The notes beneath the pieces were generated by a model. It was not told the origin of the DNA. It searched no databases and was given only the letters and a program-made list of their open reading frames with translations. From assembly GCA_919903025.1 (NCBI GenBank), contig CAKKSE010000097.1, positions 1 to 46,916 on the forward strand: a DNA stretch of 46,916 nt. Direction: 5' to 3'. Positions 15,942 to 18,911 of this stretch are shown piece after piece. Source of the stretch: Nitrospiria bacterium. GTDB lineage: Bacteria > Nitrospirota > RBG-16-64-22. How positions within the stretch are numbered: the first letter of the stretch is position 1; each line of letters begins with the position of its first letter. The position numbers and the translations under genes were made by a program.

Positions 15942-17015
15942 CTAGAGTTCCATCTTCTTCTTGCTTTCAAGGATCAGTCTCTCGTACGCGGTCCCCGCGG
16001 CGGCTAGGAGTCTGGAGAGCCTGGCCGGAAGCGTCGGGTCGATATCCGAGCGTCCCGCGTCACCGTAGAAGAGGTTGACCACTCTCCGGCGGACGTGAAC
16101 CGGGAGGACGAGGGCGGTCGCGGGCCGTTCGCGGCCCAGGGCGCGGAGAAGCGCTTCGTTCAGCGGCTCGGAACCCACGGGGCCGAGGTAAATGGCCCCG
16201 CTCTCTTTGACGGTCTTCAAGACGGACGGTCCGTCCAGCGGCAGGATGGTCTCTCCGATCACGGCCAGAGGTCCGTCGGCCGAGACACCCACCCAGCCGA
16301 TCGCCTCGTCCGTTTTGACAAGGAACAGGGCCGCCGTCGAAAGATACTGGCGCGCGAACTGAAGGATCGTCAGCCCGATCCTGGTCCGGTCCGGGGCCGC
16401 GTCCATCTGCTCGATCGCGTTTTCCAGCGGGAGAGGGCCCGTCGGGACGACCAGGGGAGGTTCCGCGGCCTTGAGGCGCGATTCCGGCAGGGGCCGGCCC
16501 GGAGTCACTCCTGGACGGGACCGGTCCGGGATTCTCCCGCCGAAGATGGCGACGCGCTCCACTTCGGAGAGGCGCGCGTGGTATTCGCGGCGGGGAATTC
16601 CATAGTTCCGCTCCAGATAGTACGCGAGGACGATCTCCGGGACGGCGTATGGGACGACCATCAGGCCGGTGAGGAACGAGATCTCGTCCAGGACCATGAG
16701 ATCGCGCGGGTTGGCCATGGCGAGGTGGAGCCTTCGCCCTTCGATCTTGATCGGGTGGACGCTGTGCTTCTGGACGAGATCGGAGGGGATTCGTTCGATG
16801 AGATCGCGCGGAGCGTCCTCGAGATCGGACTGGCTGGCGCACGGGACACCGAAATGCCGGGACAGAAGGCGCTTGTGCGTCTCGATATCGATGTGGCCGA
16901 GCGTGAGCAGGATCGTCCCAAGCCGTCCACCGTAGACGACCTGGTTCTTGAGGGCGTCTTCAAGCTGCTCGGGCGTGATGACCTTCTCGCGCGCGAGAAG
17001 GGTCCCAAACTTCAT
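15942..17015 (-). CDS. Standalone MshEN / GspE-N-terminal domain protein (candidate c-di-GMP binding)
   Basis: MKFGTLLAREKVITPEQLEDALKNQVVYGGRLGTILLTLGHID...LLSRHFGVPCA; no ATPase domain. Confidence 0.75.
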   Translation of the reverse strand: MKFGTLLAREKVITPEQLEDALKNQVVYGGRLGTILLTLGHIDIETHKRLLSRHFGVPCASQSDLEDAPRDLIERIPSDLVQKHSVHPIKIEGRRLHLAMANPRDLMVLDEISFLTGLMVVPYAVPEIVLAYYLERNYGIPRREYHARLSEVERVAIFGGRIPDRSRPGVTPGRPLPESRLKAAEPPLVVPTGPLPLENAIEQMDAAPDRTRIGLTILQFARQYLSTAALFLVKTDEAIGWVGVSADGPLAVIGETILPLDGPSVLKTVKESGAIYLGPVGSEPLNEALLRALGRERPATALVLPVHVRRRVVNLFYGDAGRSDIDPTLPARLSRLLAAAGTAYERLILESKKKMEL

Positions 17016-17081
17016 GGCTGTTCCTCATGGCGCGGGATTCGGCTTGCGGAGCCGTCAAGACCGACGGCTTGTCTAGACCCC

Positions 17082-17297
17082 TCACGTTCCGCCGAAGCCG
17101 ACAGCCGTTCGCCCGTTTTCCTCGATGATGACGGGGACGTTTCGTCCTCCTCCGGTGACGGCGAGCATGCGGGCCATGGCGTCCGGGTCGTCCTTGACGT
17201 TGAAGTATTCGATCGTGAATCCGCGCTGGGCGAAGTCCTCACGGGCTCGCGTCGTATACGGTCAGGTGTCTTTGCCGTAGATCGTGACTCTGGGCAT
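17082..17297 (-). CDS. UXX-star family glutaredoxin-like selenoprotein; in-frame TGA (17262-17264) read as selenocysteine
   Basis: ATG with GGGGAGG upstream; MPRVTIYGKDT[TGA]PYTTRAREDFAQRGFTIEYFNVKDDPDAMARMLAVTGGGRNVPVIIEENGRTAVGFGGT then TGA stop; thioredoxin-fold pattern on both sides of the TGA. Confidence 0.88.
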
Positions 17298-17367
17298 CGA
17301 GAACCTCCCCTTCTGAAAGCTGACCACTGAAAGCTGATCGCTCTTTTACCAGACGCGGGGCGGGGCG

Positions 17368-18225
17368 TCAATCGCAAGGAAGGCGGACATTGTCAATCAG
17401 CCGCACGCTTCCGATCCGGCCGGCGACGAGGGCGACGGCCGGTCGGTCGCAGGTCTCGATCGGGTCCAGCGTGCCGGCGTCGCGGATCTCGAGGTATTCC
17501 GGCGTGAAGGCAGGCTCGGCGCCGAGAACGGCGAGGCCTCGTTCGCGCAGGGCGGAAACGCGCCGTTCTCCGTTCGCGCGCGTACGGGCGATCTCCCGCA
17601 GGGCGCGGGAAAGAACGGCGGCGGCTTCTCGGCCGCCAGGGGAAAGGAGGGCCTTCCTGGAGCTCATGGCGAGACCGTCGGCCTCACGGACGGTCGGACA
17701 GGGGACGATCTCCACGTCGAGGTCGAGGTCCGTCGCCATCTGCCGGATCACGGCGAGCTGTTGGTAGTCCTTCTCTCCGAAATAGGCCCGAGTCGGGCTG
17801 ACGATGTTGAATAGCTTGAGGACGACCGTGGCCGCGCCCCGGAAAAGGTCGGGCCGAGATGCGCCGCAAAGGCCCTCCGCGGCCCTTCCCGGCGCGACGA
17901 ACGTGTCGAATCCCGGGGGATAGATGTCCGCAACCCGGGGAAGGAAGAGGAGATCGACCTTTTCCCGCTCGCAGAGAGCCGTGTCCCGCGGGACGTCCCT
18001 GGGGTACCGGTCCAGATCCTCCGTCGGGCCGAACTGGGCGGGATTGACGAAAACGGACACGACGAGCAGGTCGTTTTCCGTGCGCGCGCGGCGGATCAGG
18101 GAGGCGTGCCCCTCGTGGAGCGCGCCCATCGTGGGGACAAAGCCGATCGTCTTGCCGGCCTGGAGGGCGGGGCGGACCCGGCCGCGGAGGTCAGCGGGAG
18201 AAGAGATGGTTTCCACGGATCGCAA
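17368..18225 (-). CDS. panC: Pantothenate synthetase
   Basis: TIGFVPTMGALHEGHASLIRRA, VFVNPAQFGPTEDLDRYPR, YFGEKDYQQL, MSSRKALLSP. Confidence 0.97.
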   Translation of the reverse strand: MRSVETISSPADLRGRVRPALQAGKTIGFVPTMGALHEGHASLIRRARTENDLLVVSVFVNPAQFGPTEDLDRYPRDVPRDTALCEREKVDLLFLPRVADIYPPGFDTFVAPGRAAEGLCGASRPDLFRGAATVVLKLFNIVSPTRAYFGEKDYQQLAVIRQMATDLDLDVEIVPCPTVREADGLAMSSRKALLSPGGREAAAVLSRALREIARTRANGERRVSALRERGLAVLGAEPAFTPEYLEIRDAGTLDPIETCDRPAVALVAGRIGSVRLIDNVRLPCD

Positions 18226-18284: not shown

Positions 18285-18911
18285 CTACCACTCGGCGAAG
18301 AGGTCGTCCGCCTCCACTTTGATCGGAAGGCGGCCGAGGGGCCGGCTGCCGCCTTTGACGCACGCGCCGGTTTGGGGATCGAATTCCCAGTGGTGGCCGG
18401 GGCAGACGATGTTCCCCGCCGCGTTCTGCTGGAGGGGGATCTTCGTTTTCCTGTGCGGGCAGTGGTCGTCGTAGACGGCGGCGCTTCCGTTCCGGCGGAC
18501 GATGATCACCGTTCTGTCCTCAATGGTCCGCCACGCGGGATGCTCCTCCGGGAATTCCGCGAGGGGGCCGATTCGGTGCCAGCCCGCCGGACGGCCCAGG
18601 TTCTCCGCGCGGAACTCCGGAAGGTCCATCGAGAGAAGAACGTCGACGGCGCCCAGGACCTTCGTGAGACCTGCCGCCGGGAAGGAGCACAGGATCGCGT
18701 CGAGAATCTCGTTCGGAGTGGCGCCGGTTTCGATGGCGCGCGGAAGGTACTGCTTGAGGCCCCGCTCGCTTCCCGTCACGACCTTCGTGACGACGGAGAT
18801 GAGCCAGCGCGTCTTCGGGTCGAGGTGGCGCGCCGATTCCTTGAGGAACTTGAGGTAATGCCCCATCGCTTCGGGGCGGACCTTGGCAAGATAGTCGAGG
18901 GCTTCGCTCAT
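18285..18911 (-). CDS. Carboxymuconolactone decarboxylase-like domain fused to Rieske [2Fe-2S] domain
   Basis: N-terminal CMD-like helices (ARHLDPKTRWLISVVTKVVTGSERGLKQYLPRAIETGATPNEILDAILC); Rieske CPH-x16-CPGH in C-terminal half. Confidence 0.82.
   Translation of the reverse strand: MSEALDYLAKVRPEAMGHYLKFLKESARHLDPKTRWLISVVTKVVTGSERGLKQYLPRAIETGATPNEILDAILCSFPAAGLTKVLGAVDVLLSMDLPEFRAENLGRPAGWHRIGPLAEFPEEHPAWRTIEDRTVIIVRRNGSAAVYDDHCPHRKTKIPLQQNAAGNIVCPGHHWEFDPQTGACVKGGSRPLGRLPIKVEADDLFAEW

Follow-up and report, generated by a model that had tools for sequence, protein, structure and literature searches.

A probable double-selenocysteine gene of UXX-star selenoprotein family 1 in a Nitrospiria bacterium

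In complexes of glutaredoxins with glutathione, the loop before the cis-proline is where the backbone of the protein pairs with the glutathione cysteine, beside the active-site cysteine. The fold, the active-site position and the cis-Pro loop of the classical glutaredoxins and NrdH (PDB 1h75, 3grx and 4tr1) are, according to a structural model, shared by the UXX-star protein described here. However, this protein lacks the second cysteine of the C-P-Y-C motif that defines the classical dithiol glutaredoxins, its chain ends where theirs continue, and a second selenocysteine (Sec) would be carried in its tail. The closest described system is found in Table 1 of a 2026 review, where a "Distant Grx-like protein 1 (UXX-star selenoprotein family 1)" is listed under NF041114 with the motif UxxT and 2 Sec (PMC13188914). 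A family with two Sec residues and UxxT has thus already been catalogued, and the gene studied here is a further member of it. With NF041114 it shares a match to the whole profile, the UxxT motif, two Sec residues and a C-terminal U-x-x-stop, and no defining difference was observed; compared with most relatives, the protein is longer by three residues in the segment that joins helix 1 to strand 2. The Cys-only members of NF041212 in Thermus and Sulfobacillus share C/U-P-Y-T and C/U at the tail position, but Cys replaces Sec in them, their Cys tail runs 3-14 residues further, and they are located in hydrogenase-maturation operons.

The gene is situated on the minus strand of the window, i.e., the whole stretch of 46,916 nucleotides that was analysed (contig CAKKSE010000097.1), and its features are listed in Table 1. 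Its start codon ATG (17295-17297) opens a frame of 74 residues, which runs through MPRVTIYGKDT, TGA, PYTTRAREDFAQRGFTIEYFNVKDDPDAMARMLAVTGGGRNVPVIIEENGRTAVGFGGT, TGA, GV and TAG; with both TGA codons taken as Sec, the translation is MPRVTIYGKDT-U12-PYTT...VGFGGT-U72-GV. The UxxT active-site motif is present as U12-P-Y-T15, and the second Sec codon stands three codons ahead of the stop (TGA72-G-V-TAG). In the original prediction, the gene had been described as a UXX-star selenoprotein gene with a single Sec at residue 12. The start codon, the in-frame TGA, the peptide quoted on either side of it, the GGGGAGG ribosome site and an ORF of another frame at 17012-17377 were all found again, and the family identity was borne out by a score of 107.5 bits against NCBIfam NF041114 (UXX-star selenoprotein family 1, cut-off 72), with the whole profile covered. 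Two points had to be revised. The TGA at 17082-17084 had been taken as the end of the gene, but the frame continues with U-G-V-TAG to 17073, and a TGA followed by two residues and a stop is found in 41 of 41 relatives; without the terminal GV the score is 103.4 bits, and reading on lifts it to the full value and extends the match to the very end of the profile (position 70/70). Moreover, the U after which the family is named is the C-terminal Sec at residue 72, not residue 12 as had been supposed. The gene is considered to encode a UXX-star family 1 selenoprotein with two Sec residues with a probability of roughly 93%. It escapes ordinary ORF calling.

Table 1. Coordinates of the UXX-star gene and its associated elements in the window
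Feature	Position	Strand	Remarks
UXX-star family 1 double-selenoprotein gene (probable)	17073..17297	-	74 codons + TAG stop (17073-17075)
UGA codon for Sec12 (U-P-Y-T active site; predicted)	17262..17264	-	TGA in 38/41 relatives
UGA codon for Sec72, the U of UXX-star (predicted)	17082..17084	-	TGA in 41/41 relatives
Shine-Dalgarno-like GGGGAGG	17304..17310	-	6 nt before ATG
Putative SECIS 1, within coding region	17230..17250	-	Twice-bulged helix; apical loop CGUGA, 18 nt past UGA12
Putative SECIS 2, 3' UTR	17050..17069	-	AGCCGUCG-GUCU-UGACGGCU; loop 20 nt after UGA72

Searches with the family profile gave matches in 64 of the 396 genomes of the phylum, and the match at the window locus, with E = 3.7e-26 in the search of the whole genome, was far beyond chance. 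Altogether 41 distinct genes were read, i.e., 37 found with a pattern that demanded U or C at both sites and four more matches that this pattern had missed, which were viewed separately. In every one of them codon 72 was TGA, and the two residues after it, in most cases G-V, always preceded a stop, which varied among TAA, TAG and TGA. At codon 12, TGA occurred in 38 genes, and the remaining three had TGC (L018), TGT (L050) and TAA (L055); the Cys homologues at residue 12 for which the original prediction had recommended a search are therefore represented by two of the 41 relatives. These counts indicate that Sec72 is more strictly kept than Sec12. Three different stops are used at position 75 and TGA alone at position 72, a pattern that would be expected of Sec coding at the latter but not of termination. 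The gene with TAA (G355:C63:5125-5325) belongs to a genome that carries a second copy with two TGA codons, and its TAA could be caused either by decay or by an assembly error. Under the standard code the frame contains in-frame stops, as would be expected of a pseudogene or a sequence with errors, but this explanation is already contradicted by the recurrence of both TGAs across dozens of independent assemblies and by the mostly synonymous differences between close relatives (e.g., 21 vs 7 and 17 vs 8 codons), and it can hardly be correct. In ten relatives (L018, L021, L034, L037, L060, L063, L064, L065, L066 and L075) the true stop is itself a UGA, nine bases past the Sec-UGA. Pairs of this kind, with the two UGAs three codons apart, make it possible to examine in a clean natural setting how a Sec codon is distinguished from a stop by the spacing of the SECIS. 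No relatives were found in the phages or viral contigs searched.

In the published model of the bacterial SECIS, the loop lies 16-37 nt after the UGA and has a G among its first two positions (PMC13188914). A hairpin of this type was found after each UGA codon, and the evidence was strong for UGA72 and moderate for UGA12, where the stem is also protein-coding. The hairpin after UGA72 (-11.6 kcal/mol in the window) lies wholly past the stop codon, and therefore it cannot be explained by protein constraint. It can be formed in 37 of 37 genes, with the loop 16-23 nt downstream, and all seven family pairs covary, with changes on both sides, in a MAFFT alignment that was built without structure. 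Of the cells in this alignment 82% pair, a value from which a few misaligned rows, including that of the window itself, detract, compared with 22-50% in slid controls, and the covariation score was reached by no shuffle. When 60 nt were folded freely, the stability was ordinary after UGA72 (z = 0.27), and after UGA12 it was raised only weakly (z = -1.49). After UGA12 the window has a bulged stem with a local fold of -7.1 kcal/mol; the family stem consists of five pairs with the loop 18 nt downstream and is kept in 91% of cells, with covariation, although part of this conservation may stem from the protein (A-R-x-A) because the element is in coding sequence. No Rfam family matched the window at the gathering threshold. 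SelB would decode UGA12 by means of the hairpin within the gene and UGA72 by means of the second hairpin directly past the true stop. It could be argued that only UGA12 encodes Sec and that UGA72 is the true stop, as UGA can terminate too and some failure of read-through at UGA72 is likely in vivo. However, this reading is very unlikely, since codon 72 is invariably TGA while the stop three codons on is freely any of the three, the G-V downstream of U72 is conserved among the aligned relatives and is then followed by a covarying hairpin, and the Cys-only relatives carry Cys at position 72. With two Sec-UGAs and two SECIS elements in one gene of 74 codons, the locus presents a compact natural case.

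The host, a close relation of Nitrospirae bacterium RBG_16_64_22, was also expected to decode UGA as Sec, and this agrees with the content of its own genome, which is 98.7% complete. The gene selA adjoins selB on one contig, a tRNA-Sec was detected at 70 bits (gathering score 47), and two selD genes are present (L079, G000:C226:3799-4710; L080, G000:C178:18795-19715). Since each selD has one in-frame TGA, both selD products are probably selenoproteins as well. Together with the U or C in relatives and the SECIS-type hairpin, these genes uphold Sec at residue 12 as originally proposed; that proposal was incomplete in that a second Sec is predicted at residue 72. None of the observations named beforehand as speaking against it, namely a lack of homologues with U or C at residue 12, a complete genome without sel genes, or reads turning the TGA into TGC or TGT, was encountered. 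Reassignment of UGA to another amino acid throughout the genome would account for the in-frame TGAs, and for nothing more; it is already contradicted by the full Sec machinery and by the adjacent panC, which ends at TGA and so indicates that UGA is an ordinary stop elsewhere in the genome, and is extremely improbable. Among the genomes of the phylum, selA was present in 57 of the 64 with a UXX-star gene and in 117 of the 332 without one (Fisher p = 4e-16, which is too small because the genomes are related). As for the seven gene-bearing genomes without a full selA, selB was seen in four, in one case alongside a partial selA, and neither gene was seen in three (G040, G084 and G143), where either missing contigs or a real mismatch could be the reason.

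The Cys-only members in Thermus and Sulfobacillus are plasmid-borne, match NF041212 with 75 and 68.5 bits and retain C12 and T15 (C-P-Y-T) as well as C72. As Cys is kept at both Sec positions, both positions appear to matter without selenium too. These genes are flanked by hypE and hypF within operons for the maturation of NiFe hydrogenase (L091:6157-12616 and L092:6036-12551), which suggests a maturation role for the Cys-only genes there. The hypF of the second locus is annotated as an acylphosphatase, and the name given to it here is based on its location and length. A hydrogenase role in the organism of the window was rejected, as hypD is absent from its own genome.

When 37 sequences were supplied to AlphaFold2 with Sec modelled as Cys, the fold of glutaredoxins and NrdH was predicted for the 74-residue chain (pLDDT 96.3, pTM 0.85). 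The model has two strands of two residues each, at 53-54, directly ahead of cis-Pro55, and at 72-73. In a model without residues 72-74, strand 53-54 was lost, the mean pLDDT was 90.9 and that of the remaining end residue was 39. The simplest reading of these models is that the Sec72-Gly73 tail pairs with the loop ahead of cis-Pro55; Sec72-Gly73 is similar to the Cys-Gly found in glutathione. The attacking selenol would be that of Sec12, where helix 1 starts (U-P-Y-T). Since Thr stands without exception at position 15, the second motif position, in all 37 aligned sequences instead of the usual resolving Cys, Sec72 is proposed to resolve Sec12. As far as the chemistry can be deduced, Sec72 on its short folded-back tail would most likely be a built-in resolving partner, with a Sec12-Sec72 diselenide replacing Cys15 and glutathione. 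The complete proposal, in which the Sec-Gly-Val tail mimics glutathione from within the chain, pairing with the cis-Pro loop as glutathione does and joining Sec12 in an internal diselenide, so that the protein would be a glutathione-independent, self-resolving glutaredoxin, is tentative, and its chances are put at less than even; it would provide a testable mechanism for the uncharacterised UXX-star family. The main alternative is a metal site (for Hg, As, Ni or similar) made up of the two Sec residues, in place of a redox pair. Roles as metal ligands, rather than in redox, have been proposed for UXX-star proteins (PMC13188914), and the occurrence of the Cys-only relatives in hydrogenase-maturation operons points in the same direction. 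However, the glutaredoxin active site and the cis-Pro loop are kept, the lack of hypD leaves no hydrogenase link in the organism itself, and metal-resistance neighbours were not seen in the loci read, so that a metal site is regarded as unlikely, though by no means far-fetched. In a limited search of the literature, which is no proof of novelty, descriptions were not found for the tail acting as glutathione, for a second SECIS beyond the stop, or for a Sec-UGA and a stop UGA separated by nine bases, as in the relatives.

The loci read showed no conserved operon context; panC is near the UXX-star gene in genomes of family f4 (L021, L024 and L025), as it is in the window. Immediately upstream of the gene there is a short intergenic repeat, GAAAGCTGACCACTGAAAGCTGA, at 17315-17337, which occurs at one place in the window, and directly downstream, at 15942-17015 on the minus strand, a protein with an MshE-type cyclic di-GMP-binding N-terminal domain is encoded. 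Other in-frame TGAs conserved between the window and a same-genus contig were mostly shadow-frame noise, and the four candidates left by a stricter third-position test, which is blind to Sec codons near gene ends, were rejected as they look like shadow frames too. The intergenic segment 23088-23187 is similar to several places on the same-genus contig G002:C53 and is probably a dispersed repeat. At 18285-18911, on the minus strand, a protein of 208 aa is encoded; its C-terminal half contains a Rieske-type ferredoxin domain, and its N-terminal half looks by eye like the AhpD/CMD type.
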